This document shows, in pieces, positions 5,978-22,413 of a stretch of DNA of 38,596 bases. The notes beneath the pieces were generated by a model that was given only the letters and a program-made list of their open reading frames with translations, made no database searches and had not been told where the DNA came from. The stretch's first letter is position 1; every line of letters begins with the position of its first letter. The DNA is taken from NCBI GenBank assembly GCA_018971105.1, contig JAGWVB010000007.1:1-38596 (forward strand), written 5' to 3'. Both the position numbers and the translations under genes were made by a program. Source of the stretch: Burkholderiales bacterium (lineage in GTDB: Bacteria > Pseudomonadota > Gammaproteobacteria > Burkholderiales > Burkholderiaceae_C).

Positions 5978-6053
5978 AACCCCCTTGCCGCGCCCGCGCT
6001 GGCGCCCGGCTGGCCCGCTGCCTACAGTGCGGCCAGCTCGAAGGAGGCTCGCA

Positions 6054-7487
6054 GTGGTGGATGTCCTGGTGATCGGCGGCGGCAACGCGGCCTTGTGCGC
6101 CGCGCTGACGGCGCGCGAGGCCGGCGCCAGCGTGCTGCTGCTCGAGGCCGCGCCGCAGGCCTGGCGCGGCGGCAACTCGATGCATGTGCGCAATCTGCGC
6201 TGCATGCACGAGGCGCCGCAGGACGTGCTGATCGAGGCCTACCCGGAGGAGGAGTACTGGCAGGACCTGCTCAAGGTCACCGGCGGCAGGACCGACGAGA
6301 CGCTGGCGCGCCTCGTGATCCGCGCCTCGGCCACCTGCCGGCCCTGGATGCAGTCGCATGGCGTGCACTTCCAGCCCCCGCTGTCGGGCGCGCTGCACGT
6401 GGCGCGCACCAATGCGTTCTTCATGGGCGGCGGCAAGGCCTTGGTGAACGCCTATTACCGCAGCGCGCAGCGGCTGGGCGTGCGGCTGCGCTACGAGGCG
6501 CCGGTCGAGCGCATCGAGCTCGACGGCGAGCGCTTCGCCGCCGCCTGGGTCGGCGCCGAGCGCATCCCGGCCCGCAGCTGCGTGCTGGCCGCGGGCGGCT
6601 TCGAATCGAACCGCGCCTGGCTGCGCGCCGCCTGGGGCCGCAACGCGCGCGGCGAATGGCCCGCCGACCGGTTCCTCATCCGCGGCACGCGCTACAACAC
6701 CGGCGTGCTGCTCGAACAGATGATGGCGCTGGGCGCGGACACCGTCGGCGACCCGACCCAGGCCCACATGGTGGCGATCGATGCCCGCGCCCCGCAGTAC
6801 GACGGCGGCATCTGCACGCGGCTGGACTGCGTCTCGCTCGGCGTCGTGCTCAACCGCGACGCCGAGCGCTTCTACGACGAGGGCGAGGACTTCTGGCCCA
6901 AGCGCTACGCGATCTGGGGCCGGCTGGTGGCGCAGCAGCCGGGGCAGATCGGCTACAGCATCATCGACGCCAAGGCGGTGGGCCGCTTCATGCCGCCGGT
7001 GTTCGAGGGCGTGCAGGCCGACAGCCTGCCCGGGCTGGCGGCCCGGCTCGGCCTGGATCCGGCGCGCTTCGCCCGCACCCTGGCCGCCTACAACGCGGCC
7101 TGCCGCGTCGGCCATTTCGACCACACCCGGCTCGACGACTGCCACACCGAGGGGCTGGCGCCGGCCAAGACGCATTGGGCGCTGCCGATCGACACGCCAC
7201 CGTTCTACGGCTATGCGCTGCGCCCGGGCGTGACCTTCACCTACCTGGGCCTGAAGGTCGGCGCCGCCAGCGCGGTGCAGTTCGGCGGCCGGCCGAGCGC
7301 GAACCTGTTCGTCGCCGGCGAGATGATGGCCGGCAACGTGCTGGGACAGGGCTACACGGCCGGCGTCGGCATGTCCATCGGCACGGCCTTCGGCCGCATT
7401 GCCGGCACCCGGGCCGCGGCGGCCGCCGGCCACCAGGGTCGCAGTTCAGGAGGCGTCGATGTCACCGCTCGAATCACTGGTCGCTGA
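6054..7487 (+). CDS. tcuA: FAD-dependent tricarballylate dehydrogenase TcuA
   Basis: A 477-residue flavoprotein of the fumarate reductase/succinate dehydrogenase family. The N-terminal dinucleotide fold ([18 protein letters not shown]) binds FAD. The C-terminal block [20 protein letters not shown] is typical of TcuA and its relatives. It should oxidise tricarballylate to cis-aconitate, passing electrons to TcuB. Translation starts at the GTG at 6054, six bases after AAGGAGG (6041-6047). The 3' end overlaps tcuB by 29 bp, indicating coupled expression. Related flavoproteins oxidise other succinate-like acids, so the exact substrate is inferred from the tcuR-tcuA-tcuB context. Confidence 0.87.
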
Positions 7488-8655
7488 AGCCGCCGCCCTG
7501 GGCGACGGCCAGCCGGGCGCGCAGGGCGCGGCCCCGGTGCGCGCCGCCACGGCGGCTGAATCCGAAGTCGCCCGGGTGCTGCAGATCTGCAATGCCTGCC
7601 GCTATTGCGAGGGCTATTGCGCCGTGTTCCCGGCGATGACGCGCAGGCTGGCGTTCAGCGCCGCCGACGCCCATTTCCTGGCCAACCTGTGCCACCACTG
7701 CGGCGCCTGCCTCCACGCCTGCCAGTACGCACCGCCGCACGAGTTCGCGGTCAACGTGCCGCAGGCCATGGCCCGCGTGCGCGGCCAGACCTATGCCGAC
7801 TACGCCTGGCCGCCGGCCCTGGGCCGGCTCTACCGGCGCAACGGCCTGGTGCTGGCGGCGGCGCTGGCCGGCGCCCTGGCGCTGTTCCTGCTGCTGGCGC
7901 TGCTGCGCCGGGGCGGGTTGGATGCGCTGGGGCAGCCCGCGGGCGCTGCCGGCCTGTACGCCGTGTTTCCGCATGGGCTGATGGTGGCGCTGTTCGCGCC
8001 TGTGCTGGGCTGGGCGGTGCTCGCGCTGACGCTGGGCCTGCGCCGCTTCTGGCGCGGCCAGGCCCCCGGCAGCGCCGGCCTGCCCGCGCTCGCCGAAGCC
8101 GGCGGCCACGCGCTGCGGCTGACCTACCTGGGCGGCGGCCATGGCGCCGGCTGCAACAACGAGGACGACGCTTACTCGCTGTGGCGCCGGCGCGCCCACC
8201 ACGCCACCTTCTACGGCTTCATGCTGTGCTTCGCCGCGACCAGCGTCGCCACGCTGTACCACTACGCCCTGGGCCGCGAGGCGCCTTACGCCTTCGACAG
8301 CCTGCCCAAGCTGCTGGGCATCGCCGGCGGCATCGGCCTCGCGCTGGGCAGCGCCGGCCTGGGCTGGCTGAACCTGCGCCGCCACCCGCTGCAAGGCGAG
8401 CCGACGCAGCGGCCGATGGACCGCGGCTTCATCGCGCTGCTGTTCCTCGTCGCCGTCAGCGGCCTCGCGCTGGCGGCCGGCCACGGCAGCGCCGCCTTCG
8501 TGGGCCTGCTGTGCCTGCACCTGGGGGCGGTGATGGCGCTGTTCGCGACCCTGCCTTACGGCAAGTTCGCGCACGGCCTGTATCGCGTCGCGGCGCTGTT
8601 GAAATGGTCGATCGAGAAGCGCCAGCCCAGCCGCTTGAAGCTGGCCGACGACTGA
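7459..8655 (+). CDS. tcuB: Tricarballylate utilization 4Fe-4S membrane protein TcuB
   Basis: A 398-residue protein with two cysteine clusters near the N-terminus, C44-C47-C50-C54 ([11 protein letters not shown]) and C78-C81-C84-C88 ([11 protein letters not shown]), each suited to a 4Fe-4S centre. The rest is membrane-embedded, with several hydrophobic helices and conserved histidines ([19 protein letters not shown]). In Salmonella, TcuB reoxidises the FADH2 of TcuA and delivers electrons to the quinone pool. The ATG at 7459 lies five bases after AGGAGG (7448-7453), inside the end of tcuA. No tcuC-type transporter follows directly; the nearest candidate is the MFS gene at 10223-11566 on the other strand. 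Confidence 0.88.
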
Positions 8656-8712: not shown

Positions 8713-8816
8713 CCATTCGACGATCGCGCCACGCAACGATTGTTGATGGTTTTGCAATGGACGCGGGCGCCCGCATCGCGCAGCATCCCGCTCCCCACAA
8801 CCCTCGCTTTGCGCCC

Positions 8817-9149
8817 ATGCCCGTGATCAAGATCTACGCCGATCCGCGTTGCGGCGGCGCTGCCGCCCCGCCTTTCGAGCCGGCCCTGGCCCGCCTCGCC
8901 GACGAGGCCGTGACGACGCTCGGCGCCGATCCCGATCTGGTGCAGATCCTGTGGATCGCCCCCCTCGCCCCGGTCCATGGCAGCCGGGTCTACGTCGAGG
9001 CGAATTTCCGCGCCAAGGAAACGCGCACGCCCGCGGCCGTCGAGCGCCTGATGGACGCCATCGACCGCTGCGTCCAGGCCTGCGTCGGCGAGCACCCGCG
9101 CATCCGCTGCTACGCCGAGGAGGCGGCCCACTTGTACGCGCGCCGATGA
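8817..9149 (+). CDS. Small protein, tautomerase-superfamily-like
   Basis: A 110-residue protein beginning MPVIKIYADP. A proline directly after the initiator Met, on a short beta strand, is the hallmark of the 4-oxalocrotonate tautomerase superfamily, where Pro-1 is the catalytic base. A helix containing VTTLGADPDLVQILW and the following strand (SRVYVEANFRAKETR) also fit that fold, and the length suits a double-unit member. The overall match is weak, so treat it as a conserved hypothetical with a plausible isomerase role. Its stop overlaps the start of the following esterase (ATGA), so the two are translationally coupled. It lies 161 bp after tcuB and may be part of the same operon. Confidence 0.6.
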   Translation: MPVIKIYADPRCGGAAAPPFEPALARLADEAVTTLGADPDLVQILWIAPLAPVHGSRVYVEANFRAKETRTPAAVERLMDAIDRCVQACVGEHPRIRCYAEEAAHLYARR

Positions 9150-10153
9150 ACCTCCCGCAAGGCATCCAGTTGCGCTCGATCGGCAGCTTCCTGGTCGGCG
9201 GCGCAATCCGCAGCCTGCGCGGCCTGCCGCCGCGCCAGGCCCGCCTCGCGCAAGGCGCCGAGCCGCGCGCGATCGACCCGAACGGCGACCTGATGACGGG
9301 CCAGCTCTACGCCCAGGTGTTCGAGCTCGCCCAGCCGCGCTGGCCGGTGCCGGTCGTGTTCTGGCACGGCGGCGGCATGACCGGCGTGAACTGGGAGACC
9401 ACGCCCGACGGCCGGCCGGGCTGGCTCTGGCTGTTCCTGCAGGCGGGGTTCAACGTCATCGTCTGCGACGCCTTCGAGCGCGGCCGCGCCTCCTGGTCCC
9501 CTTATCCGGAAATCTATGCACAGGAGCCGATCTTCAGGACCCTGGACGAAGGCTGGAGCCTGTTCCGCATCGGCCCCGAGGGTGGCTATGCGAGCGAGCC
9601 TGCACGGCGCCGCGCCCACCCCGGGACGCGCTTCCCGGTCCGGGCCTACGACGCCTTCGCCCAGCAATGGGTGGCGCGCTGGCCCGGGCACGAGGCGCCC
9701 ACGCTCGCCGCCTACGACCGCCTGCTGGGGCGCGTCGGCGCCTGCGTGCTCGTCGGCCACAGCCAGGGCGGCGGGTTCGCGCTCGCCGCGGCGCGGCGCC
9801 ATGCGCAAAGCGTGCTCGCCACGGTGGCGCTGGAGCCGTCCGGCGCGCCGACAGCAGAGGTCGATGTCGATGTCGCGATCGAGGTCGATGCCGGACTGCC
9901 CGCGCACCTGCTGGTCTGGGGCGACCGCGTGCTGGAGCATCCGCAATGGCGCCGCTACCGGGAGGTGGTCGACGCCTATGCGCGCCGCATCGCGAGCCGC
10001 GGCACGGCGACGCTCACCGTGGATCTGGCGGCCGAAGGCGTTTTCGGCAACAGCCACTTCCTGATGATGGACGACAACAGCGCCGAACTGGCGCTGCGGG
10101 TGCAGCAGTGGATTGCCGCGCTGCCGGCGCTGCAGGCCGTCGAACGCCGCTGA
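9146..10153 (+). CDS. Alpha/beta hydrolase, esterase-713-like
   Basis: A 335-residue hydrolase. The oxyanion region is WHGGGMTGVNWETTPDG and the nucleophile elbow is GHSQGGG. An acidic residue in LLVWGDRVLEHPQW and a late histidine (NSHFLMMDDN) complete a plausible Ser-Asp-His triad. The long insertion between oxyanion motif and nucleophile, with FERGRASW, resembles the Alcaligenes esterase 713 group of bacterial esterases. No signal peptide is evident. It shares an ATGA overlap with the preceding tautomerase-like gene, so the two probably act on one substrate, perhaps an ester or lactone feeding the tricarboxylate locus. That role is inference. Confidence 0.82.
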   Translation: MNLPQGIQLRSIGSFLVGGAIRSLRGLPPRQARLAQGAEPRAIDPNGDLMTGQLYAQVFELAQPRWPVPVVFWHGGGMTGVNWETTPDGRPGWLWLFLQAGFNVIVCDAFERGRASWSPYPEIYAQEPIFRTLDEGWSLFRIGPEGGYASEPARRRAHPGTRFPVRAYDAFAQQWVARWPGHEAPTLAAYDRLLGRVGACVLVGHSQGGGFALAAARRHAQSVLATVALEPSGAPTAEVDVDVAIEVDAGLPAHLLVWGDRVLEHPQWRRYREVVDAYARRIASRGTATLTVDLAAEGVFGNSHFLMMDDNSAELALRVQQWIAALPALQAVERR

Positions 10154-10222: not shown

Positions 10223-11566
10223 TCAATGAATCGCTTCGAGCGAGCGCCCGGTCGTCAAGGTGCCGAAGAGGCCGATCGCGGCCGAGACCACGAGCCAGCA
10301 GCCGGCGATGTAGATGAAGACGCTGACGTAGCCGCGCGCCGCGAAGAGCGAGCTGACGATGAAGGGGCCGACGACATTCGCCAGGCGCCCTATGCCGTAG
10401 GTCAGGCCCATGCCGGTCGACCGCACCTCGGTCGGGAACAGCTCCGGCGTGTAGGTGTACAGGCCCACGGCCATGGCCTGGATGCAGAGCGTGACGAGCG
10501 CCCCGAACACCAGGATGGCCTGCGGCTGGAACGACAGGCCGAAGCCGAGGCCGAAGGCCGCGATCAGGATGCCGCCGACCGTGAGGTACCAGCGCCGCTC
10601 GAAGCGCTCGACGAGGTACGAGGCGAGTACGGCACCGAGCGGGTTGCACACGGCGATGAGGGCGGAATAGGTCAGCGAACTGACGATCGAGAAGCCGTGC
10701 TTGACCAGCAGCGTCGGCACCCAGGCCACGAAGCCGTAGAAGCCCAGGGTCTGAAACACCCAGGCGACGAGCAGCGTGTAGGTGCGGCGGCGCTCGCCCG
10801 GCTCGAACAGCCGGGCGAGCGGCACGCGTTGTCCGGGGTCGACCGCGTCCTGCCGCACCGGCGCGGCCGCGGGCCGCGCCGACTGCGGACTGGAGGCCGA
10901 TTGCGCCTCGAGTTCGTCGACGATCTCGAGCGCCTGCGCCCCGCGCTGGTGGCGCTGCAGCCAGCGCGGCGACTCCTTCATGCGCGCGACGAAGGCGAGC
11001 GCGAACAGGCCCAGGCTGCCCCAGACGAAGACCGTGCGCCAGCCCCAATCGGCCATCGGCACGACGGCGCGCGCGATCCAGGCGGTGGCGGGTATGCCCA
11101 GCAGGCCGACGGTCATGATGCGGCCCATGTATTTGCCGCGCACCTTGGCGGGGAAGAACTCGCTCACATAGGTGTTGGCGATGACCGTCATGCCCGAGAG
11201 GCCGACGCCGGTGAGGAAGCGGAACAAGGCCAGCGAGGCCACGTTCCAGGACGCGGCATTGAGCAGCGAGAACAGCGCATAGCAGGAGATCGTCAGGATG
11301 AGCCCCCGCTTGCGGCCGACCGCATCGGCGAGCCAGCCCCCTGAGACCGCGCCGAGGAACATGCCGCCGAAACTGGCCGAGGTGATGAAGGCGACCGAGC
11401 CCACGGCGACGCCCCAGGCCTTCATGACGCCCGGCGCGGCGAAGGCGAAGGTATTCAGGTCCGCGAACTCGAAGAAATACGCGAAGGCCAGCGCGATGAC
11501 GGCCGTGCGGTGGGCTGCGGTGATGGGCAGGCGGTCCATCCGCTCGCTGAGGCTGATGCTGGACAT
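10223..11566 (-). CDS. MFS transporter, metabolite:proton symporter type
   Basis: A 447-residue twelve-helix carrier. Loop 2-3 carries the MFS signature as GGWLADAVGRKRG, and the helix 4-5 region has RFLTGVGLSGMTVIANTYVSEFFPAKVRGKYMG-like residues typical of the sugar/aromatic-acid symporter families (PESPR-like motif seen as KESPRW). An acidic patch FFEFADLN lies in helix 1. The start ATG at 11566 is preceded by an AGGAGA ribosome site. It is divergent from the hydratase/CoA-transferase operon across a 342-bp control region, which makes it the likely importer for that operon's acid, or for tricarballylate since no TcuC is present. The substrate cannot be read from the sequence. Confidence 0.85.
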   Translation of the reverse strand: MSSISLSERMDRLPITAAHRTAVIALAFAYFFEFADLNTFAFAAPGVMKAWGVAVGSVAFITSASFGGMFLGAVSGGWLADAVGRKRGLILTISCYALFSLLNAASWNVASLALFRFLTGVGLSGMTVIANTYVSEFFPAKVRGKYMGRIMTVGLLGIPATAWIARAVVPMADWGWRTVFVWGSLGLFALAFVARMKESPRWLQRHQRGAQALEIVDELEAQSASSPQSARPAAAPVRQDAVDPGQRVPLARLFEPGERRRTYTLLVAWVFQTLGFYGFVAWVPTLLVKHGFSIVSSLTYSALIAVCNPLGAVLASYLVERFERRWYLTVGGILIAAFGLGFGLSFQPQAILVFGALVTLCIQAMAVGLYTYTPELFPTEVRSTGMGLTYGIGRLANVVGPFIVSSLFAARGYVSVFIYIAGCWLVVSAAIGLFGTLTTGRSLEAIH

Positions 11567-11908: not shown

Positions 11909-12766
11909 ATGAACCAACCCCTCGAAGACCTGGCCGCCTGGATCGGCCGCAGCGAGACCCAGCAGGACCAGATAGGCGCCACGCCGGTGCGCGCCCTGAC
12001 CGCGACGCTGGACCATCCGGCCGCCGCGGTGCCCGACGGCACGCCCTTGCCGCCGCTGTGGCACTGGCTGTATTTCCTGCCGATGCACCGCCAGTGCGAG
12101 ATCGGCGCCGACGGTCATGCCCAGCGCGGCGGCTTCCTGCCGCCGGTGCCGCTGCCGCGGCGCATGTGGGCCGGCAGCCAGTTCGAGTTCCGCGCCCCGG
12201 TGCGCGTCGGCGACGCGGTCGAGCGCCGCTCGACGATCGCCGACGTGACGGCAAAGGACGGCCGCAGCGGCCGCCTCGTCTTCGTCAAGGTCCGCCACGA
12301 GCTGCGCTGCAACGGCGCTGCCGATCCGGCGCTGGTCGAGTTCCACGACATCGTCTACCGCGAGGCGCAGCAGCCGGGCGACGTGGCGCCGCCGCCGCAG
12401 CCCGCTCCGACCGATGCCGCGTGGCGGCGCGAGATCGTTCCCGACGACGTGCTGCTGTTCCGCTATTCGGCGCTGACCTTCAACGGCCACCGCATCCATT
12501 ACGACCGGCGCTACGTCACCGAGGTCGAGGGCTATCCGGGCCTGATCGTCCACGGCCCGCTGATCGCGACGCTGCTGCTCGACCTGCTGCGCCGCGAGCA
12601 GCCCGACGCCGAGGTGGCCACCTTCCGCTTCAAGGCCGTGCGGCCGACCTTCGACCTGCACGCCTTCCACGTCCACGGCGCGCCGCAGCCCGACGGTTCG
12701 GTGCGGCTGTGGGCCGCCGACCACGAGGGCTGGCTGACGATGGACGCCAGCGCCACGCTGCGCTGA
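11909..12766 (+). CDS. HTD2/FAS1-like dehydratase (MaoC family), probable itaconyl- or mesaconyl-CoA hydratase
   Basis: A 285-residue protein with two hotdog folds. The N-terminal half has the FAS1-like dehydratase features (LPPLWHWLYFLP, then GFLPPVPLPRRMWAG). The C-terminal half carries the catalytic segment RYSALTFNGHRIHYDRRY followed by EGYPGLIVHGPL, the form found in HTD2 and in itaconyl-CoA and mesaconyl-C4-CoA hydratases. It should hydrate a branched C5-dicarboxylyl-CoA to citramalyl-CoA. It is the first gene of an operon with a CoA-transferase 11 bp downstream and a citramalyl-CoA-lyase-like gene after it, which together define the route. The start at 11909 gives MNQPLEDLAAW; another in-frame start upstream at 11849 lacks context. 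Confidence 0.83.
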   Translation: MNQPLEDLAAWIGRSETQQDQIGATPVRALTATLDHPAAAVPDGTPLPPLWHWLYFLPMHRQCEIGADGHAQRGGFLPPVPLPRRMWAGSQFEFRAPVRVGDAVERRSTIADVTAKDGRSGRLVFVKVRHELRCNGAADPALVEFHDIVYREAQQPGDVAPPPQPAPTDAAWRREIVPDDVLLFRYSALTFNGHRIHYDRRYVTEVEGYPGLIVHGPLIATLLLDLLRREQPDAEVATFRFKAVRPTFDLHAFHVHGAPQPDGSVRLWAADHEGWLTMDASATLR

Positions 12767-12777
12767 GGAGCCGATCC

Positions 12778-13974
12778 ATGCAACCGCTGAAGGGCATCAC
12801 CGTCGTCACGCTCGAGCACGCGATCGCCGCGCCGTTCGCGACGCGCCAGCTCGCCGACCTCGGTGCCCGCGTGATCAAGATCGAGCGCCCGGGCAGCGGC
12901 GACTTCGCGCGCGGCTACGACGAACGCGTGCGCGGCCTGGCCTCGCATTTCGTCTGGACGAACCGCTCAAAGGAAAGCCTGACGCTCGACGTCAAGCACC
13001 CGCAGGCGGCGGCGCTGCTGCGCCGGCTGATCATCGAGCAGGCCGATGTCGTCGTGCAGAACCTCGCGCCCGGCGCGGCGGCGCGGCTGGGTCTGTCGTT
13101 CGAGGCGCTCGCGGCCGAGAAGCCCGGCCTCATCGTCTGCGACATCTCGGGCTACGGCGACGACCGCCATCGCCCCGGCCCCTACCGCGACAAGAAGGCC
13201 TACGACCTGCTCGTGCAGAGCGAGGCCGGTTTCGTCTCCGTCACCGGCACGCCCGACGAGCCGAGCAAGGCCGGCCCGTCGATCGCCGACATCGCCGCCG
13301 GCATGTACGCCTACACCAACATCCTCGCGGCGCTGATGCAGCGGCGCATCGACGGCCGCGGCCGCCGCATCGACCTCTCGATGCTCGAGTCGCTGGGCGA
13401 ATGGATGAGCTATCCGCTGTACTACGCCTTCGACGGCGCGCCGCCGCCGCCGCGCACCGGCGCCAGCCACGCGACGATCTACCCCTACGGCCCGTTCCCG
13501 GCCGGCGACGGCAGGACCGTGATGCTGGGCCTGCAGAACGAGCGCGAATGGCAGGCCTTCTGCGCCCAGGTGCTGCTGCAGCCGGCGCTGGCGCAGGACC
13601 CGCGCTACACCAGCAATTCGAAGCGCAGCGCCGCGCGCGTCGCGCTGCGCGCGATCATCGTCGAGGCCTTCGCGACGCTGAGCGCCGCCGAGGTGCTGGC
13701 GCGGCTCGATGCGGCGCAGATCGCGAACGCCCAGGTCAACACGATGGCCGAGGTCTGGCAGCACCCGCAACTGGCCGCGCGCGGCCGCTGGCGCGAGGTC
13801 GAGACCGCCGTCGGCCGGGTGCCGGCCCTGCTGCCGCCCGGCAGCTGGGACGACGGCGACGGCCCGCGCCTGGACGCGGTGCCGGCGCTGGGCCAGCACA
13901 CCGAGGCGATCCTGGGTGCGCTGGGGCTGGACGCTGCGGCCATCGCCGCACTGCGTGCCGCCGAGGCGGTCTGA
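12778..13974 (+). CDS. CaiB/BaiF (family III) CoA-transferase
   Basis: A 398-residue family III CoA-transferase. It shows MQPLKGITVVTLEHAIAAPFA at the N-terminus, IKIERPGSGDFARGYD, and the catalytic aspartate at D171 in PSIADIAAGMYAYTN, followed by GRGRRIDLSMLESL. Enzymes of this class move CoA between dicarboxylates through an aspartyl-CoA anhydride. Placed between a C5 hydratase and a CitE-like lyase, it most likely activates itaconate, mesaconate or citramalate with succinyl-CoA, as Ict does in Pseudomonas. Candidate donors and acceptors cannot be separated from sequence. It begins 11 bp after the hydratase stop. A second, broken gene of this family lies at 32869-33354. Confidence 0.87.
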   Translation: MQPLKGITVVTLEHAIAAPFATRQLADLGARVIKIERPGSGDFARGYDERVRGLASHFVWTNRSKESLTLDVKHPQAAALLRRLIIEQADVVVQNLAPGAAARLGLSFEALAAEKPGLIVCDISGYGDDRHRPGPYRDKKAYDLLVQSEAGFVSVTGTPDEPSKAGPSIADIAAGMYAYTNILAALMQRRIDGRGRRIDLSMLESLGEWMSYPLYYAFDGAPPPPRTGASHATIYPYGPFPAGDGRTVMLGLQNEREWQAFCAQVLLQPALAQDPRYTSNSKRSAARVALRAIIVEAFATLSAAEVLARLDAAQIANAQVNTMAEVWQHPQLAARGRWREVETAVGRVPALLPPGSWDDGDGPRLDAVPALGQHTEAILGALGLDAAAIAALRAAEAV

Positions 13975-13990
13975 GGAGGCTGAAGTGAAT

Positions 13991-14060
13991 CCCCCCCGAA
14001 GCGCCTTCGGCGCTCCCCCCCGGGGGGGCGACGCCAGCGGCCCGGCAGAGCCGATTCCGC
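13991..14060. repeat. REP-like hairpin element with C/G tracts
   Basis: A C7 run (13991-13997) is followed by the hairpin AGCGCC-TTC-GGCGCT (14000-14014) and the perfect 14-base palindrome of seven C and seven G (14015-14028), then GCGACGCCAGCGGCCCGGCA. I recognise this arrangement as a common intergenic repeat in Comamonadaceae-type genomes. It sits in the 149-bp gap between two genes of one operon and could attenuate or stabilise the message. A weaker relative with CCCCC-GC-GGGGG lies at 16359-16370. Confidence 0.6.
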
Positions 14061-14123
14061 GGCGTCCGCTTGACCCATGGATTCATGCGTCGAGGGTGGC
14101 CACGGCTGCCATGGAGAACTGAG

Positions 14124-14939
14124 ATGAGCACCGCCCCACGCACCTACCTGTTCGTCCCCGGCGACCGGCCCGACCGCTTCGACAAGGCGCTGGCCGCCGG
14201 CGCCGATGCCGTCGTGCTCGATCTCGAGGACGCCGTCGCGCCGGCCGCCAAGGCGCGCGCCCGCGACGCCGTCGCCGAGCGCCTGCACAGCGCCAGCGAC
14301 GCCGACCACCAGCGCCTCGTCGTGCGCATCAACGACGAAGCGACGCCCGAGTTCGAGGCCGACCTGGCGATGCTCGCCCGCACCCACGCCGCGCAGGTGA
14401 TGCTGCCCAAGGCCGAGCGCGTCGCCACGGTCGCGCGCGTGCGCGCGGCCTGCCCCGGCATCGCCGTGATCGCGCTGATCGAGACGGCGCGCGGCGTGCT
14501 CAACGCCGAGGCGCTGGCCGCGGCCGACGGCGTGCAGCGGCTGGCCTTCGGCACCATCGACTACGCGCTCGACCTCGGCCTGAGTGGCGACCCGGCCGGC
14601 TTCGACCCGGCCGCGAACCGGCTCGCGCTCGCCTCGCGCGCCGCCGGGCTGGCGGCGCCTGTCGCCGGCGTCACGCCCGAGGTCGCCGACCCGGCGCCGC
14701 TGCGGGCCGACCTGCAGCGCGCCCGCGCCCATGGCTACACCGCCAAGCTCTGCATCCACCCGAAACAGGTGGCGCTGGTGCACGAAGCGCTGCAGCCGAG
14801 CGCCGCCGAGATCGACTGGGCGCGGCGCGTGATCGCCGCCGCCGAGGGCGCCGCCGGCGCCGTGCAGGTCGACGGCCGCATGGTCGACAAGCCCGTGCTG
14901 CAGCGCGCCCAGGCCTTGCTCGCCCGCGCGGCGCGCTGA
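14124..14939 (+). CDS. HpcH/HpaI-CitE-like lyase, probable citramalyl-CoA lyase
   Basis: A 271-residue TIM-barrel aldolase/lyase. Signature segments are TYLFVPGDRPDRFDKALAAG near the N-terminus, the metal- and substrate-binding VVLDLEDAVAP (31-40), LPKAERV, IALIETARGVLNAEAL, and FGTIDYALDLG, where CitE proteins have FGAEDL. The last variant is shared with Ccl/RpfX-type citramalyl-CoA lyases, so cleavage of citramalyl-CoA to acetyl-CoA and pyruvate is the best call. Malyl-CoA lyase activity is an alternative. The ATG at 14124 follows a GAG-type ribosome site. The gene lies 149 bp after the CoA-transferase with a REP-like element between, and 38 bp before the next lyase. Confidence 0.83.
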   Translation: MSTAPRTYLFVPGDRPDRFDKALAAGADAVVLDLEDAVAPAAKARARDAVAERLHSASDADHQRLVVRINDEATPEFEADLAMLARTHAAQVMLPKAERVATVARVRAACPGIAVIALIETARGVLNAEALAAADGVQRLAFGTIDYALDLGLSGDPAGFDPAANRLALASRAAGLAAPVAGVTPEVADPAPLRADLQRARAHGYTAKLCIHPKQVALVHEALQPSAAEIDWARRVIAAAEGAAGAVQVDGRMVDKPVLQRAQALLARAAR

Positions 14940-14977
14940 ACACCGCCACCATTCCATCCCTTCCCGAGGACACCGCC

Positions 14978-16324
14978 TTGCCTTCCACGATCATCGACTC
15001 CGCCATCTTCGGCGACATCTTCAGCACCGCCGCGATGCGGCGCGTCTGGTCCGACGAGAACCGCACCGCGAAATACGTCGCCATCGAATCGGCGCTGGCC
15101 CAGGTGCAGGGCGCTCTCGGGCTGATCCCGGCCGAGGCCGCGGCGGAAATCGTGCGCGTCTGCCACATCGAGAACATCGACCTCGTCAAGCTCAAGGCAC
15201 AGACCGAGCGCATCGGCTACCCCATCCTCGGCGTCGTCTCGCAGATCAACGCGCTGTGCCGCGACAAGCTGGGCGAGTTCTGCCACTGGGGCGCGACGAC
15301 GCAGGACATCACCGACACCGCCACCGTGCTGCAGATCCGCGAGGCGCTGGAGATCGTCGACGGCGAGCTCAAGGCGCTCGGCGACGCGCTGGCCAAGCTC
15401 GCGCGCGAGCACCGGCTGACGCCGATGATCGGCCGCAGCAACCTGCAGCAGGCGGTGCCGGTGACCTTCGGCTACAAGATGGCCGGGCTGCTCGCCGCCG
15501 TGGCGCGCCACCGCGAACGGCTGGCGCAGATCCGGCCGCGCGTGCTGCAAGGCGAGTTCGCCGGCGCCGCCGGCACCCTGGCCTCGCTCGAGACCGGGGC
15601 GATGGAGACGCAGGCCGGCCTCTGCGCCGAACTCGGCCTGGCGCAGCCGGTGATCGCCTGGCACACGGTGCGCGACACCATCGCCGAGGTCGGCACCTTC
15701 CTCGGCCTCGTCGGCGGCACGCTGGGCAAGATCAGCATGGACGTGAAGCTGATGATGCAGACGGAGGTCGGCGAGGTCTACGAGCCTTATGCGCACGGCC
15801 GCGGTTCGAGCAGCACGATGCCGCAGAAGCGCAACCCGATCTCGAGCTGCTACATCCACGCCCAGATCTCGGTCCTGCGCCAGCATGCGGCGGCGATGCT
15901 CGACGCGATGGTCGCCGACCACGAGCGCTCGACGGGGCCCTGGGAGATCGAATGGATCGTGCTGCCCGAGGCCTTCTGCCTGCTCGCCGGCGCGCTCGCG
16001 CAGTCGCGCGCGGTGATCGAGGGGCTGGAGGTCGACACCCGGCGCATGCGCGCGAACCTCGACATGACGCATGGCCTCGTCGTCTCCGAGGCGGTGATGA
16101 TGGGCTTGGCGCCCTACATCGGCCGCGAAACCGCACACGACCTGGTCTACGACATCTGCCGCCTCGCGATCCAGCAGGAGCGCCCGCTGCTCGAGCTGCT
16201 GGCCGGGAACGCCGAGATCACCAAACACGTGACGCGCGAGCAGCTCGCGGCGATGTGCGACCCGGCGGCCTACCTCGGCCAGTCGGGGCTGATGGTCGAC
16301 CGGGTGCTCGCGCGCTGGGGATGA
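14978..16324 (+). CDS. Fumarase/aspartase-superfamily lyase (CMLE/adenylosuccinate-lyase-like), substrate unknown
   Basis: A 448-residue member of the fumarase/aspartase superfamily, closest in style to 3-carboxy-cis,cis-muconate cycloisomerase and PurB. Conserved region 1 is CHWGATTQDITDTA (102-115). Region 2 reads GRSNLQQAVPVTFG, where PurB has a catalytic histidine and this protein has N155. Region 3 is the flexible loop GSSSTMPQKRNP (276-287) with the catalytic serine. It therefore retains the serine loop but not the region 2 histidine. Translation appears to start at the TTG at 14978, seven bases after GAGGA. It ends the hydratase/CoA-transferase/lyase operon. It is probably not PurB itself and may release a C4-C5 unsaturated diacid for the upstream enzymes. 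That is inference. Confidence 0.8.
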   Translation: MPSTIIDSAIFGDIFSTAAMRRVWSDENRTAKYVAIESALAQVQGALGLIPAEAAAEIVRVCHIENIDLVKLKAQTERIGYPILGVVSQINALCRDKLGEFCHWGATTQDITDTATVLQIREALEIVDGELKALGDALAKLAREHRLTPMIGRSNLQQAVPVTFGYKMAGLLAAVARHRERLAQIRPRVLQGEFAGAAGTLASLETGAMETQAGLCAELGLAQPVIAWHTVRDTIAEVGTFLGLVGGTLGKISMDVKLMMQTEVGEVYEPYAHGRGSSSTMPQKRNPISSCYIHAQISVLRQHAAAMLDAMVADHERSTGPWEIEWIVLPEAFCLLAGALAQSRAVIEGLEVDTRRMRANLDMTHGLVVSEAVMMGLAPYIGRETAHDLVYDICRLAIQQERPLLELLAGNAEITKHVTREQLAAMCDPAAYLGQSGLMVDRVLARWG

Positions 16325-16352
16325 AAAGCGCCCCCAGACCCGCCGCTGCGCG

Positions 16353-17291
16353 TCAGGCCCCCCGCGGGGGCGCGGGGCGCCCGGATGCCGACTTGCGCTT
16401 GCCCTTCATCTCGCCGAAGAAGGCGTAGAGCTGCTGCGCTGCCGGCGACAGCGTGCGGCCGCGGCGGCGGATCAGGCCGATGCGGCGCGTCACCACCGGA
16501 TCGGCCAGCGCCACGCTGACGAGCAGCGGATGGTCGGCCGCCGGCATCGCCAGCGACGGCACCGCGGCCACGCCCAGGCCCGCTTCGACGAGGCCGAGCA
16601 TGGTGGTCACATGCTGGGCCTCGTAGATCGCCTGCGGCCGGCCTTCCAGCCCCGACAGCGCCTGGTCGAGCAGCAGCCGGTTGCCGGACGACCTGGCGAC
16701 CGAGATGTTGTCGTAGGCGGCCAGCTCGGTCCACGTCACCTTGCGCTTCTTCGCCAGCGGGTGGTCGCGCCGGCAGGCGGCGACGAAGCGCTCCTCCAGC
16801 AGCGGCTCGAACTCGATCTCGGGCTCCTGGCTGCCCATGAAGTTGAGGCCGAAATCGGCCTCGCCGCGGGTCACGGCCGCGAGCACCTCGTTCGCGCTCG
16901 CGTCGTGCATCTTGACCCGGATGCGCGGATAGCGCTCGTGGTAGCGGCGGATCACCTGCGAGACGAAGTAGTAGACGGTCGAGGGCACGCAGGCGATCGT
17001 CACCTCGCCCATGCGCGTCGCCGCGAAGCCGCGAATGCCGAGCAGCGCGCCGTCGAGCTCGTCGAGCACCTGCTGCACGGTGCGCGCGAAGTCGCGCCCC
17101 ACCGCCGTCAGCTGCACCTTGCGCGTCGTGCGCTCGAGCAGGCGCACGCCCAGCGCCTGCTCGAGCTTGTCGATGCGCCGGCTGAACGCCGGCTGCGAGA
17201 TGTGCACCGCGTCGGCGGCCTTGCGGAAGTTGCCCATCTCGGCCACGGCGCGAAAGGCGTGCAGGTCGTTGAGGTCGAAGGCGGCGGCCAT
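16353..17291 (-). CDS. LysR-type regulator of the itaconate-like operon
   Basis: A 312-residue LysR protein: winged HTH at residues 5-65 (LNDLHAFRAVAEMGNFRKAA, ISQPAFSRRIDKLEQALG), then the effector domain (GEVTIACVPSTVYYFVSQVI, GLVEAGLGVAAVPSLAMP). It is convergent with the four-gene operon, its stop lying 28 bp from the lyase stop, and its own start is 4.5 kb from the operon promoter. A 24-bp segment shared between its upstream region (17347-17370) and the operon's upstream region (11807-11830) suggests it controls both. The C-terminus is basic and proline-rich and runs into a CCCCC-GC-GGGGG palindrome, so the last ~15 residues may be a recent extension. The ligand is unknown. Confidence 0.86.
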   Translation of the reverse strand: MAAAFDLNDLHAFRAVAEMGNFRKAADAVHISQPAFSRRIDKLEQALGVRLLERTTRKVQLTAVGRDFARTVQQVLDELDGALLGIRGFAATRMGEVTIACVPSTVYYFVSQVIRRYHERYPRIRVKMHDASANEVLAAVTRGEADFGLNFMGSQEPEIEFEPLLEERFVAACRRDHPLAKKRKVTWTELAAYDNISVARSSGNRLLLDQALSGLEGRPQAIYEAQHVTTMLGLVEAGLGVAAVPSLAMPAADHPLLVSVALADPVVTRRIGLIRRRGRTLSPAAQQLYAFFGEMKGKRKSASGRPAPPRGA

Positions 17292-17346
17292 GGCGGATCT
17301 CCGGTCCCTGCAGCGCAGGCAGTGCGGTGATTTTGCGCCATCAGGT

Positions 17347-17370
17347 GCATCAATCGTTCGTATCCATGCA
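17347..17370 (+). promoter_or_regulatory. Candidate LysR operator, copy 2 (regulator side)
   Basis: It lies 55 bp upstream of the lysR start codon. It matches the operon-side site at 11807-11830 in 19 of 24 bases, including GCATCAATC at the left and TGCA at the right. Here the outer bases also form an inverted pair, TGCAT (17346-17350) and ATGCA (17366-17370). It is consistent with autoregulation. Confidence 0.55.
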
Positions 17371-17412
17371 AGTGCGCGACCGCCGCCGTCGAGCCCCGGG
17401 CGCGGCCGGCCA

Positions 17413-17877
17413 TCAGGCGGGCTTGACGGCCGCAGCGCGATCCTCGAGCGCGACGGCGCCGGTCTCCAGCATCGACTTGAGGTTGGAAATGATCATGGGC
17501 CAGCCGCCCGAGACCGCCCGGATGAGCTTCGATGGTTCGCGTTCGATGGTGTGGGTGATGGAGAGCTTCATGGCGCTTCCGGCAGATTCCATTTCCATCG
17601 TGCAGAGCGAATCGCCCTCGGCCTTGAGCTCGGGATTGTCCTGGTGCTGCCAGCGTATGACGAGGCGCCGCGGCGGCTCGGACTCGATGATCTCGCCGGC
17701 ATCGCAGACGCTGCCGTCGGCGCGGACCATCTTCCAGGGCGACCCGGCCGTCCATGCGCTTTCGCAATGCATGCCGAACCAGTACTGCCGCATGAACGCC
17801 TTGTCGGTCAATGCCGACCAGAGTTTTTCGGGCGTCGTGCGGATATACGTGACGTAGACAAAAGCGGACTTAGTCAT
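17413..17877 (-). CDS. SRPBCC/AHSA1-domain protein
   Basis: A 154-residue START-like protein of the AHSA1 type. The N-terminal strand and helix read FVYVTYIRTTPEKLWSALTDKAFMRQYWFG, followed by EIIESEPPRRLVIRWQHQ and a C-terminal helix beginning GWPMIISNLKSMLE. The fold makes a hydrophobic cavity; members bind lipids or other ligands, but function is rarely known. It follows the ArsR gene on the same strand with an 8-bp overlap, the very common ArsR-AHSA1 pairing in which the regulator represses both. The ArsR C-terminus and this N-terminus share bases 17870-17877. Confidence 0.87.
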   Translation of the reverse strand: MTKSAFVYVTYIRTTPEKLWSALTDKAFMRQYWFGMHCESAWTAGSPWKMVRADGSVCDAGEIIESEPPRRLVIRWQHQDNPELKAEGDSLCTMEMESAGSAMKLSITHTIEREPSKLIRAVSGGWPMIISNLKSMLETGAVALEDRAAAVKPA

Positions 17878-18205
17878 CAGGGTTCTCCAGTCGTCGTTTC
17901 AGTTTGTCGAGCGCCTTCAGGCGCGGCCTTTCGAACTTCGCGATCCAGCGCTCGTAGAGGTCCTGCAGCGGCACAGGATTGAGGAAATGCATCTTTTCGC
18001 GCCCACGCCAGACGACCGCGACGAGGTTGGCTGCCTCGAGCAAGCCCAGGTGCTGCGTCACGCCCTGCCGCGTCATGTCCAGGTGCTCGCACAGTTCGCT
18101 CAGCGTGCGGCCATCGTGGGCGTGCAACAGATCCAGCAGCCGGCGTCGACTGGGATCGGCAAGCGCCTTGAACAGCAGGTCGGGATCGTCTGCGGGGTCG
18201 GTCAT
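17870..18205 (-). CDS. ArsR-family winged-helix regulator
   Basis: A 111-residue winged-helix repressor: FKALADPSRRRLLDLLHAHDG, then TLSELCEHLDMTRQGVTQHLGLLEAANLV as recognition helix, and the wing VVWRGREKMHFLN. It lacks the CxC metal motif of classical ArsR/SmtB sensors, so it likely belongs to the non-metal branch paired with AHSA1 proteins. It starts at the ATG at 18205, behind a near-consensus promoter carrying two inverted repeats (18216-18235 and 18255-18269), and is probably autoregulated. It overlaps the downstream AHSA1 gene. Confidence 0.9.
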   Translation of the reverse strand: MTDPADDPDLLFKALADPSRRRLLDLLHAHDGRTLSELCEHLDMTRQGVTQHLGLLEAANLVAVVWRGREKMHFLNPVPLQDLYERWIAKFERPRLKALDKLKRRLENPDD

Positions 18206-18215
18206 CGCTCGTCAT

Positions 18216-18269
18216 ATGCAAGTGATCAGTTGCATGAACTATAGGCAACTATTTACTTGCATGTCAAGT
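18216..18269 (-). promoter_or_regulatory. Promoter and paired operators of the arsR-AHSA1 operon
   Basis: On the minus strand, TTGACA (18267-18262) is separated by 18 bp from TATAGT (18243-18238), a near-consensus sigma70 promoter. ACTTG-CATGT-CAAGT (18255-18269) covers the -35 box. The inverted repeat ATGCAA-8 bp-TTGCAT (18216-18235) lies at the expected transcription start, 11 bp from the start codon. Two dimer sites bracketing the promoter fit tight self-repression by the ArsR protein. Confidence 0.75.
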
Positions 18270-18484
18270 CCCGCGCGAATTCGGCGAGCGGCCGGCCACG
18301 CGCCATCCGGGTTTCGGGTCCGGCAGCCGCTTGGCGACCGGCCGACCCAGCGGACGATCGCCTGGGTGCCCGCGGCGCAGCGCGGGCGCGGCGCCGATGT
18401 CCGTTGCCGCCGGGCCCGCGCATCTGCATCGAGGTGCGGTAATGTGCCGCCCTCGATGCCGCCGCTGCGGTGCAGGAGATCGCC

Positions 18485-18841
18485 ATGGAATTCGTTCTGA
18501 CATTTCATCAGCCCGCCGAGGTCTACGAGACCAATGCCGACCCGGTGCGGGGGGCCGCGCCGATGCAGGCCTGGCGCCAGTACATGGACGCGATGCAGGC
18601 CGCGGGCGTGCTGCGCGGCGGCAATCGCCTCGACGCCTTCGGCGCCACCAGCGTGCGCGTGCGCGACGGCCGGCGCCAGGTCCAGGACGGGCCCTACGCC
18701 GAAACCAAGGACCTGCTCGGCGGCTATGTCGTCGTCGAGGTGCCGTCGCTCGACGAAGCGCTCAAATGGGCCGAACGCAGCCCCAGCTCGGCGGTCGGCA
18801 GCACCGAGGTCTGGCCGGTGATGACGATGGCGCCGCGGTGA
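18485..18841 (+). CDS. YciI/DGPF-domain protein
   Basis: A 118-residue protein of the YCII-related (DGPF) family. The diagnostic segment is QVQDGPYAETKDLLGGYVVVEV, preceded by a helix AWRQYMDAMQAAGVL and ended by WAERSPSSAVGSTEVWPV. These are small ferredoxin-like dimers with unknown chemistry. They are the established genomic partners of ECF42-type sigma factors, whose regulon in Streptomyces includes the DGPF genes themselves. The ATG at 18485 follows AGGAGA. The stop overlaps the GTG of the sigma gene (GTGA), so both are translated together. Confidence 0.9.
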   Translation: MEFVLTFHQPAEVYETNADPVRGAAPMQAWRQYMDAMQAAGVLRGGNRLDAFGATSVRVRDGRRQVQDGPYAETKDLLGGYVVVEVPSLDEALKWAERSPSSAVGSTEVWPVMTMAPR

Positions 18842-20055
18842 CGGCGGCGCGCGCGGCGGCGGACGCCGCGCGTCACAGCTACGGCCGGCTGCTGTCGTGG
18901 CTGGCCTGGCAATGGCGCGACATCGCCGCGGCCGAGGACGCGCTGGCGGAGGCCTTCGCGCAGGCACTGACGCGCTGGCCCCTGGACGGCGTGCCCACGG
19001 CGCCCGACGCCTGGCTGCTGACGACGGCGCGCCGCCGCCTGCTGATCGCGGCGCGGCGCCAACGCCTCGCCGACGATCCGACGCTCACCGTGCTCTGGCC
19101 TTGCGAGCAGGACGCCCAACCCGAGGCGCTGGCGATCCCGGACCATCGCCTGCGGCTGATGCTCGTCTGCGCGCATCCGGCGATCGATGCCGGGGTGCGC
19201 AGCGCATTGATGCTGCAGACCGTCCTCGGCCTGGATGCGGCGAGCATCGCCAGCGCCTTCCTCGTCAAGCCCGAGGCCATGACCAAGCGGCTGGTGCGGG
19301 CGAAGCGCAAGATCAAGACGGCCGGCATCCGCTTCGAGGAACCCGAGCCGGCCGACTGGCCGGCGCGGCTGGACGCCGTGCTCGAGGCGATCTACGCCGC
19401 CTACACGCTGCACTGGGGCCATGCCGAGGAAGCGACGGGACGGCAATTGGCCGACGAGGCGATCTACCTCGCGCGATTGACGAGTTCGCTGCGGCCCGGC
19501 GAGCCCGAGGCGCTGGGGCTGACCGCGCTGCTGTCGTACGCGCAGGCACGCCGGCCGGCGCAGCGCGATGCGCGGGGCGGTTTCATTCCGTTGGACGAGC
19601 AGGACACCCAGCGGTGGGACGGCGACCTGTGGGCCCAGGCCGATGCCCTGCTGGCGGCGGCCGCCGCGCGCGGTCGGCCCGGCCCCTACCAGCTCGAAGC
19701 GGCAATCCAGGCCGCGCATATGGAAGGCCTGAGGAGCCATGCCGTCCCCTGGGCCGACCTGCAGCGGCTCTACGAAGGCCTGCAGGCGCTTTCGCCGACG
19801 CTGGGCGCGGCGATCGGCCATGCCATCGCCGTCGCCCACGCGGCCGACGACCCGCAAGCGGGTCTGCGCCTGCTCGACGCCCTCGAGGCGAGCCGCGTCG
19901 CCGACCATGCCCCCTGGTGGGCCGCCCGCGCGCGCCTGCTGGCCTGGGCCGGGTTCGGCGAGGCCGCGGCGCAGGCCTACCGGCGCGCCGGTGCCTTGAC
20001 GGGCGATCCGGCGGTACGCGAGTGGCTGATCGGAAAGCTGGAAGCGCTCGGTTGA
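18838..20055 (+). CDS. ECF42-type RNA polymerase sigma factor
   Basis: A 405-residue sigma factor much longer than ordinary ECFs. The first ~170 residues hold the sigma2 region (LLSWLAWQWRDIAAAEDALAEAFAQAL, PDAWLLTTARRRLLIAARRQ) and sigma4 (LMLQTVLGLDAASIASAFLVKPEAMTKRLVRAKRKIK). The remaining ~230 residues are the helical, TPR-like C-terminal extension (YAAYTLHWGHAEE, LGLTALLSYAQARRPAQRDARG, GPYQLEAAIQAAH) typical of ECF42, which controls activity in place of an anti-sigma factor. It starts with GTG overlapping the YciI stop. No anti-sigma gene is nearby, in line with the family. Signal and regulon are unknown. Confidence 0.9.
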   Translation: MTAARAAADAARHSYGRLLSWLAWQWRDIAAAEDALAEAFAQALTRWPLDGVPTAPDAWLLTTARRRLLIAARRQRLADDPTLTVLWPCEQDAQPEALAIPDHRLRLMLVCAHPAIDAGVRSALMLQTVLGLDAASIASAFLVKPEAMTKRLVRAKRKIKTAGIRFEEPEPADWPARLDAVLEAIYAAYTLHWGHAEEATGRQLADEAIYLARLTSSLRPGEPEALGLTALLSYAQARRPAQRDARGGFIPLDEQDTQRWDGDLWAQADALLAAAAARGRPGPYQLEAAIQAAHMEGLRSHAVPWADLQRLYEGLQALSPTLGAAIGHAIAVAHAADDPQAGLRLLDALEASRVADHAPWWAARARLLAWAGFGEAAAQAYRRAGALTGDPAVREWLIGKLEALG

Positions 20056-20090
20056 CAGCGATCGGGACCGCCGTTCACGGGCCGACCGCC

Positions 20091-20144
20091 CTCATGCCAC
20101 TCGATCGTCCATGGCCGGTCGCCGCTCAGAGGCGAACGGGCCCA
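20091..20144 (+). repeat. Direct repeat flanking the benzoate cluster, left copy
   Basis: This segment aligns with 33577-33632 in the same orientation with roughly 47 matches over 57 columns, including an unbroken run ATGGCCGGTCGCCGCT. On the minus strand both copies read as the peptide PLSGDRPxTIEW, so the repeat may derive from a former gene end. The copies lie 0.2-0.8 kb outside the thiolase and benzoate-CoA ligase genes, bracketing the whole box module. Confidence 0.75.
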
Positions 20145-20178
20145 TCCAGGGCCGGCGCGATCGGGCGTCAGTTCATAG

Positions 20179-20208
20179 ATGTCCACAAAATATCCGAAAT
20201 TTGGACAT
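20179..20208. repeat. ParD-type operator remnant
   Basis: An inverted repeat with 7-bp arms, ATGTCCA and TGGACAT, separated by 16 bp. It matches the operator of the intact parDE pair (34557-34586) at 25 of 30 positions. Read on the minus strand it keeps a -10-like TATTTT, but the -35 (TTGACG at the other copy) is degraded to CTCGAT, and no parD gene follows. It is probably the leftover of a deleted or recombined toxin-antitoxin promoter. Confidence 0.65.
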
Positions 20209-20358
20209 GGATCGAGAACATCCTCCGGCCCTCGCCCCTGCTCGGCGGGTGCCGGGCGGGCGTTCTGATTCCCTCGGGGACAGCGGGATCGGTTGTTGTG
20301 CAGGCACCGATCCCGAGTCCGGACTTTGTGGCGAGCTTGCGTCGTTCGAGCGCGGTGG

Positions 20359-21561
<1,203 letters not shown>

Positions 21562-21591
21562 GGTCGATTCTTCTCCCGGGATCCCGCTTGA

Positions 21592-22413
21592 TCAAACAGC
21601 CGCATCGAAGCGCGGCGCGCGTCGCTGGCTCAGCGCGGCGTACCCTGCGCGGGCGTCGGCGCCGCCGAATCCGATGATCTCCAGCGCCAGCGAATGCTCG
21701 AACGCCGGCCAGGCCGCGCGCAGCCAGTGGTTCAACGAGCGCTTCGTGAACGCCAGCGCGGTCGCGCTGCCCTGGGCCAGATGGAGCGCGATCTCGCGCG
21801 CCTTGGCCTGCAGCTCGTCATCGGGCACGGCCAGGCTCACGAGCCCGATGCGCTCGGCCTCGACACCGTCGATGGCGTTGCACATCAGCAGGTGGTACTT
21901 GGCCTTGGCCATGCCGCACAACAGCGGCCAGACGACCGCCGCGTGGTCGCCCGCCGCCACGCCCATCTTCGTGTGCCCGTCGATGATCCGGGCTCGATGG
22001 CCGGCGACCGAGACGTCGGCGAGCAGCGCGACCGCCGCTCCGGCGCCGACGGCGGCGCCATTGATCGCACTGACGATGGGCAGATCGCAATCGATCATGC
22101 CCTGCACGATGGCCCGGCCCTCGCGCATCACGCGCAGCCGGGCGGCTTCGCTGCCCAGCATCTCCTCGACGACTTCAGGCGTGCCGCCGGCGCAGAAGCC
22201 CTTGCCCACGCTGCGCACCAGGATCACGCGCACGCCCGCTTCGGCCTGCAGTCGCGGCCAGATCGTCGCGAGTTCGGCATGGCCGCGGGCATCGGTGTAG
22301 GGCATCGCGCCCTCGGGTCCGAAGATGACTTCGGCAATGCCATCGCTGCCGATGGCGACGCTCAGGCCGGTGCTCAATTCAATGGATTTCGTCGTCGCGA
22401 CATGCGTGGCCAA
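21592..22413 (-). CDS. Enoyl-CoA hydratase/isomerase family protein
   Basis: A 273-residue crotonase-fold protein. The oxyanion-hole region reads VRSVGKGFCAGGTPEVVEEML, then SAINGAAVGAGAAVALLADVSVAG, and HTKMGVAAGDHAAVVWPLL. The catalytic loop GAAVGAG lacks the usual glutamate pattern of classical hydratases, and GDHAA follows where many members have an acidic residue, so it may isomerise rather than hydrate. In the box route a delta-isomerase or hydratase is needed to bring 3,4-dehydroadipyl-CoA to 3-hydroxyadipyl-CoA, and this is one of two candidates in the operon. It overlaps the dehydrogenase stop by 35 bp and precedes the thiolase. Confidence 0.83.
   Translation of the reverse strand: MATHVATTKSIELSTGLSVAIGSDGIAEVIFGPEGAMPYTDARGHAELATIWPRLQAEAGVRVILVRSVGKGFCAGGTPEVVEEMLGSEAARLRVMREGRAIVQGMIDCDLPIVSAINGAAVGAGAAVALLADVSVAGHRARIIDGHTKMGVAAGDHAAVVWPLLCGMAKAKYHLLMCNAIDGVEAERIGLVSLAVPDDELQAKAREIALHLAQGSATALAFTKRSLNHWLRAAWPAFEHSLALEIIGFGGADARAGYAALSQRRAPRFDAAV

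Follow-up and report, generated by a model that had tools for sequence, protein, structure and literature searches.

Introduction

In the maize smut fungus Ustilago maydis, purified Tad1 converts trans-aconitate to itaconate, while cis-aconitate is not converted, and its partner Adi1 is a PrpF-family isomerase that interconverts the aconitates and has oxalomesaconate tautomerase as its closest known relative (accessible sections of Geiser et al., PMC4720413). According to a 2025 study (PMC12290011, in part), the itaconate degradation pathway comes in two convergent variants, and its Discussion names macrophages and fungi as the known itaconate sources in ecosystems, to which the presence of itaconate genes in bacteria has been attributed. 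This study also describes a second cluster of Cupriavidus necator, which comprises an Ich homolog, a CoA-transferase and an "adenylosuccinate lyase family protein" without a Ccl nearby, and which the authors, in the part of the text at hand, set aside as "a different pathway." Here we analyze a stretch of 38,596 nucleotides (the window; contig JAGWVB010000007.1 of a Burkholderiales bacterium, assembly GCA_018971105.1, with a genome of 4.8 Mb, 98% complete, on 499 contigs). It contains a four-gene operon for proteins of the itaconyl-CoA hydratase (Ich), itaconate CoA-transferase (Ict) and citramalyl-CoA lyase (Ccl) types and for a lyase, which, judged by homology and gene context, is very probably a bacterial trans-aconitate decarboxylase homologous to Tad1 that feeds the breakdown of itaconate.

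Results

Four open reading frames on the plus strand were found in the window sequence at the coordinates named by a first-pass annotation (11909-16324), and the spacings between successive genes are 11, 149, and 38 bases. The first gene (11909-12766, +) encodes an Ich-like protein of the HTD2/MaoC type. Its best match in the PDB is 8khg, entitled "Itaconyl-CoA hydratase" (240 bits, 2e-70, 48.5% identity over 260 amino acids), and the stretch FNGHRIHYD is identical in both. The second gene (12778-13974, +) encodes a family III CoA-transferase (Pfam CoA_transf_3, PF02515, 349 bits), which presumably has the role of Ict. The third gene (14124-14939, +) encodes a Ccl-like protein of the CitE family, which contains FGTIDYALDLGL and has 8khl, "Probable acyl-CoA lyase beta chain," as best PDB match (179 bits, 1e-51), ahead of the CitE-like entry 6aq4 (139 bits). 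We take 8khg and 8khl to be P. aeruginosa proteins; the PDB matches give no organism. These matches bear out the types to which the three genes had been assigned, and homologs of Ich and Ccl are thus both present and clustered, by homology and gene order. Searches of the own genome yielded one match only for Ich, a single close Ccl (the next matches have just 35 and 25 bits), and a second copy of the CoA-transferase gene at C328 with 80% DNA identity.

The fourth gene (14978-16324, +), which has a TTG start, encodes the predicted trans-aconitate decarboxylase of the fumarase/aspartase superfamily. The protein contains the Pfam domains Lyase_1 and ADSL_C, in line with its initial description as a lyase resembling PurB and 3-carboxy-cis,cis-muconate cycloisomerase (CMLE). 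Its best PDB match is Tad1 with 510 bits, followed by 3c8t (441), CMLE (356 and 316), CreD (258), and the best PurB (183). Window lyase and Tad1 share 55% identity over 433 amino acids. The PDB match names the molecule only, and it was taken as the Ustilago protein because its 493 amino acids equal the length of Tad1 given in the accessible text of PMC4720413. In a Foldseek search with the AlphaFold model, PDB ranks 1-11 were all Tad1 chains. The model has a mean predicted local distance difference test value of 81, with values below 50 at 155-157, 262-288, and 315-320, the presumed active-site stretches. The own genome contains one lyase of this type, and the next match, 31% identical at C113, is presumably purB. 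PurB was rejected as identity of the lyase, since 293.6 bits are under the curated NCBIfam cut-off of 326.2; PurB was compared by score, outside the tree.

Relatives of the lyase had been named operon, mid, and far groups before trees were calculated, according to their identity to the window protein; two loci with 47% identity (L138, L139) were assigned to the far group because PcaC lies beside them, and one locus named mid (L091) fell beside Tad1. The identity to Tad1 is 54-61% in the operon group (87 proteins), 43-53% in the mid group (28), and 36-43% in the far group (29). A tree of 77 hand-picked rows (35 of the 87 operon loci, 21 mid, 16 far, four PDB entries, and the window) recovered Tad1 and L091 as the sister group of the 36 operon rows (support 100/99), and all other mid rows, PDB 3c8t, and the CMLE rows lay outside this clade. 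Tad1 stayed with the operon rows (100/99) in a reduced tree that omits six long-branched rows and contains, apart from the window, 17 of the 35 operon rows. There, the approximately unbiased test rejected a clade uniting mid rows with Tad1 (p-AU 7e-6).

L091 itself is a lyase encoded on a Komagataeibacter plasmid (6001-7422 of that locus). It pairs with Tad1 in the tree and has the Tad1 motifs, and no itaconate genes were found within its 13 kb. Perhaps the decarboxylase thus has another bacterial lineage, represented by L091.

The grouping is mirrored in individual residues. T155, N198, K300, S320, and Y335 of Tad1 are kept in 36/36 operon rows and E366 in 34/36, and these residues are found in none of the 21 mid and 18 far rows (0/39). 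S197, I367, and S413 are also present in 36/36 operon rows, yet they occur in 2, 3, and 4 of the 39 mid/far rows, respectively. In a printed alignment of eight sequences, Tad1, the window lyase, and L091 have RSN, three mid-type sequences RTH, and two CMLE rows RTW; a loop in the same eight sequences reads RGSSS, RGASS, and K/RGGSS, respectively. In other superfamily members, the position of N198 is occupied by the general acid. The literature search turned up no paper on a Tad1 crystal structure, and PDB titles were used instead. S320 and R360 were marked as residues tested by others because they are named in titles of mutant entries (Tad1 S320A, and Tad1 R360A with trans-aconitate). Their window equivalents are S277 and R317, both kept in 36/36 operon rows, and S320 discriminates between the groups.

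Gene neighborhoods of the lyase were then compared. Because the scan for relatives kept the best 80 of 291 confirmed ones, the comparison is restricted to close relatives. Among the 83 operon-type loci, 11 with less than 3.3 kb of upstream sequence before the lyase gene were dropped, which left 72. The full order Ich-CoA-transferase-Ccl-lyase is present in 46 loci, a slight undercount, since L031, whose Ccl match overlaps with the beginning of the lyase gene, was scored as Ich-CoA-transferase-lyase. The latter order was found in 12 loci, Ich-lyase in seven, CoA-transferase-Ccl-lyase in one, and the lyase alone in six. Within 4 kb upstream of the lyase gene, one or more of the remaining three operon genes are present in 66/72 loci. 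The co-oriented four-gene set seen at first inspection is therefore real, and the gene-neighborhood search that had been proposed for it recovered it repeatedly. Other recurrent neighbors in the 72 loci are PrpF (46), TctC (38), DctA (16), TcuB (11), TcuA (10), tripartite ATP-independent periplasmic (TRAP) DctM (7), and the major facilitator superfamily (MFS) transporter of the window (5); none of the transporters sought was found in 14/72. Both PrpF proteins of operon loci that were scanned pass the NCBIfam cut-off for oxalomesaconate tautomerase. Ich, CoA-transferase, Ccl, PrpF, TcuA, and TcuB were detected in 0/27 mid control loci (including L091) and 0/25 far/CMLE control loci. Five further operon-type loci contain Ich in four and TcuAB in two cases, and CoA-transferase, Ccl, and PrpF in 0/5; one of them is ordered Ich-lyase-TctC-TcuA-TcuB.

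Lyases at the operon level (at least 71% identity) were found in 5/299 other sampled genomes of the order, and in 0/142 genomes of the class sample and 0/397 of the phylum sample. The distribution of the operon is patchy. Its hosts include Massilia niastensis, with the lyase and Ccl genes, and Aromatoleum evansii, with tcuA, and an orthologous lyase is also present in Azospirillum.

In 26/88 loci, prpF and tctC share one open frame without an intervening stop, e.g., in L012 at about 2916-5050, and the number may be a lower bound, as proteins scored as "PrpF alone" in L030, L041, L068, L071, and L154 have 683-1153 residues. Pfam detected PrpF and TctC domains in a single protein in L090 and L048. 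An internal start preceded by a ribosome-site-like GGAG/AGGA was found in 21 of 25 junctions tested, often GAAGGAGACAAACCC-ATG, and of the four junctions without such a match L026 and L042 may be wrong start picks. A signal-peptide-like hydrophobic stretch is present in 23/26 junctions. Given these sequence features, the gene pair may yield an exported product in addition to a fused one.

Upstream of the operon, the window contains genes for a LysR regulator (5051-5977, +; Pfam HTH_1 and LysR_substrate), for TcuA, an FAD-dependent tricarballylate dehydrogenase (open frame 5985-7487, +, exact start not settled; NCBIfam NF006130, 746.8 bits, cut-off 369), and for TcuB, a 4Fe-4S protein of tricarballylate utilization (7459-8655, +; NCBIfam NF011607, 606.8 bits, cut-off 524). 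A divergent MFS transporter gene (10223-11566, -), whose best NCBIfam match, under the cut-off, is the aromatic acid/H+ symport MFS model, is a candidate for import of a tricarboxylate or of itaconate, and relatives with 77-80% identity lie directly upstream of ich in 5/80 loci. Downstream, a convergent LysR gene (16353-17291, -; Pfam HTH_1 and LysR_substrate) encodes a candidate regulator of the operon, and its relatives recur across the relatives' loci. The region 8811-10153 between tcuB and the MFS gene holds a 112-amino-acid frame followed by a gene for an alpha/beta hydrolase. Neither Pfam nor NCBIfam models matched the frame (8811-9146), which has a tautomerase-like stretch, MPVIKIYADP; frame and hydrolase gene are present in 0/80 relatives' loci. 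Scans for Rfam families, tRNAs, tandem repeats, and promoters or terminators gave nothing useful.

The 149-base gap between the CoA-transferase and Ccl genes is occupied by a dispersed repeat (13977-14120, no strand assigned), which has at least 41 further matches in the own genome; 40 of 1472 candidates were scored, and the count is a lower bound. At the position of this repeat, the close relative L010 has no Ccl gene. Another locus, L009, on a contig labeled as a Bradyrhizobium metagenome-assembled genome, is 99% identical to window positions 12110-24321 and unlike the window upstream of 12110, which lies inside ich. Either the window or the L009 contig is rearranged or misassembled at this point. 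From 11793 on, L010 and L011 are alignable with the window throughout ich.

Discussion

From homology and gene context we infer the following pathway. Trans-aconitate, a C6 tricarboxylate, would be decarboxylated by the lyase in the cytoplasm to itaconate and CO2, the chemistry that its grouping with Tad1 leads one to expect. The CoA-transferase would then activate itaconate to itaconyl-CoA, from which the Ich-like hydratase would form (S)-citramalyl-CoA for cleavage by the CitE-like lyase to pyruvate and acetyl-CoA. The substrate could enter from outside via the MFS transporter in the window organism and via TctC, DctA, or TRAP systems in relatives, or it could be derived from tricarballylate by the neighboring TcuAB. 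In many relatives, a PrpF-family isomerase would connect cis- and trans-aconitate, and PrpF neighbors fit because Ustilago pairs Tad1 with the PrpF-family Adi1. For the window genome, which has no PrpF, direct import of trans-aconitate, another isomerase, or a TcuA that yields the trans isomer would have to be assumed.

Several observations weigh against this pathway. In 26/72 loci, at least one of the three itaconate genes was not detected before the lyase, and in 6/72 none of them was; L010, the nearest DNA relative besides L009, has no Ccl between CoA-transferase and lyase. Control and operon loci are not taxon-matched, and some of the controls are shorter (10-13 kb). The CoA-transferase scores under every NCBIfam cut-off listed, and its substrate was therefore deduced from context; the Ccl-like protein has 150.1 bits with the NCBIfam model RipC_Ccl, under the cut-off of 375. 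Tad1 sits on a long branch (0.92-1.05) and is paired with L091, whose branch is long as well, and R360, present in every one of the 75 rows (operon, mid, and far), is not discriminating. A lyase match was found in none of the 11 same-family genomes among those listed. A search of the own genome, which covered PrpF and not other families of aconitate isomerases, found no PrpF, so that cis-aconitate from TcuA would need another isomerase. Lastly, the second Ich and Ccl homologs of C. necator were of low abundance on itaconate or methylsuccinate (PMC12290011, in part). This fits another inducer, and the lack of any role in itaconate breakdown would fit it equally well.

The lyase could instead decarboxylate another unsaturated tricarboxylate, e.g., cis-aconitate or a methylated or oxidized aconitate, to itaconate or a homolog. 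The window genome, with TcuA and without PrpF, would suit such a substrate, and the failure with cis-aconitate is known for the Ustilago enzyme, according to the available text of PMC4720413, from which the bacterial enzymes are a separate case. The diagnostic residues of the window lyase match those of Tad1, however, and we regard a different tricarboxylate as unlikely.

Elimination of an amine or another group from a substituted succinate or methylsuccinate, which would give fumarate, mesaconate, or itaconate, would be common chemistry for the superfamily, and class II fumarase genes beside 4/27 lyases of the mid group, about 50% identical, suggest a fumarate-yielding lyase in that group. 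The operon clade, however, lies apart from the mid group and together with Tad1, and fumarase is found beside 0/72 operon lyases. The recurrent neighbor families that were recognized are of the tricarboxylate type (TctC, PrpF, TcuAB) or general transporters, no profile search for amine or aspartate genes having been made. A lyase of N-conjugates was rejected on its clade and on the absence of supporting neighbors among those recognized, and elimination of any such group appears quite improbable. Of the proposal that the lyase forms a front end delivering a C5 diacid, the core holds up, as the gene is a conserved neighbor and most likely delivers such an acid, while elimination from an N-substituted aspartate or methylaspartate and simple isomerization of a tricarboxylate find no support, since the lyase groups with Tad1.

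The mid lyases that adjoin class II fumarase genes are L095, L098, L159, and L165. The mid group, which includes PDB 3c8t and several records labeled pcaB, is perhaps fumarate-yielding; no characterized member was among the matches.

That the lyase is a CMLE (pcaB) of aromatic breakdown is hardly credible and was rejected on score, clade, and neighbors: CMLE PRK09053 is the top NCBIfam model and several plasmid records label relatives pcaB, but the scores of 495, 346.3, and 210.4 bits with the CMLE/pcaB models stay under the cut-offs of 595 (PRK09053), 355.75 (narrowly), and 371, CMLE rows lie outside the operon clade, nine of them with G at the S320 column and W at the N198 column, PcaC and PcaD adjoin 23/25 and 19/25 far/CMLE lyases versus 0/72 operon lyases, and no protocatechuate genes were present among the genes scanned in the window from 5 to 17.3 kb. 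Plasmid records label relatives of the operon lyase pcaB, purB, or "adenylosuccinate lyase family protein," and by the sequence comparisons these database labels appear to mislead.

If the lyase is a trans-aconitate decarboxylase, some soil bacteria would gain a self-contained reason to carry itaconate genes, as trans-aconitate, a plant acid, would be converted to itaconate inside the cell and burned there. It would be a second bacterial route for trans-aconitate beside isomerization, it would correct the annotation of a lyase group now labeled pcaB or adenylosuccinate lyase family, and it would supply enzymes for itaconate production from plant acids. A wider reading, to which we give even chances, is that soil bacteria make transient itaconate from plant and microbial tricarboxylates such as trans-aconitate and tricarballylate. 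Itaconate would then have a third natural source, and toxic trans-aconitate an outlet that does not depend on aconitase. The fungal Tad1, perhaps also Adi1, would have descended from this bacterial catabolic cassette. The front end had been called undescribed at first. This does not apply to the reaction, which is known from the fungus (PMC4720413, in part), and it still applies to its use in bacterial catabolism, for which the literature search found no example. No bacterial trans-aconitate decarboxylase was found in this search of mainly open-access texts, available in part (including PMC9875883, PMC12290011, PMC8307300, PMC11495376, PMC13188880, and PMC12599236), which is not a proof.

The operon shares enzymes of the Ich and Ccl types with the ict-ich-ccl cluster PA0878-PA0886 of P. 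aeruginosa. That cluster additionally contains genes for an acyl-CoA dehydrogenase, an MmgE/PrpD isomerase, a ring-cleaving dioxygenase/glyoxalase-type protein, and IctPQM, and no Tad1-like lyase is named for it in the accessible parts of the respective papers (PMC9875883, PMC12290011, PMC12599236). P. putida KT2440, by contrast, failed to grow on itaconate (PMC9875883). The layout of the second Ich cluster of C. necator, as far as the available text describes it (PMC12290011), is matched by locus L154 of C. oxalaticus, which has an operon-type lyase (73%), TctC, and PrpF; the C. necator lyase was likened by its description, and the lyase sequence compared is that of C. oxalaticus. If the assignment is true, induction by trans-aconitate rather than itaconate would explain the C. 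necator cluster. Uptake and use of trans-aconitate are shared with the aconitate isomerase TarA and the importer TarB, but TarA isomerizes trans-aconitate to cis-aconitate, and a word search for "decarboxylase," "itaconate," and "itaconic" in the text at hand gave 0 occurrences (PMC11495376). For tricarballylate utilization, tcuA and tcuB of the window are both above the curated cut-offs. Salmonella TcuA reportedly makes cis-aconitate for the tricarboxylic acid cycle, without an itaconate step. In Acinetobacter baylyi, tricarballylate metabolism is closely linked with that of cis- and trans-aconitate, according to a study cited in the accessible text of PMC12338516. A hypothesis for purple bacteria, a replenishing route from pyruvate and acetyl-CoA via itaconate to aconitate, likewise connects itaconate and citramalyl-CoA with aconitate, including a variant through trans-aconitate, within a single scheme for bacteria, but it runs in the opposite, carboxylating direction, and the parts available mention no Tad1-like gene (PMC8307300).

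A further parallel in gene content is the Ustilago maydis cluster, which likewise combines a Tad1-type decarboxylase with a transporter and a PrpF-family neighbor, the latter present in 46/72 bacterial loci, although not in the window genome. In contrast to the fungus, which, according to the accessible text of PMC4720413, makes and exports itaconate, the bacterial operon with Ich, CoA-transferase, and Ccl should consume it.

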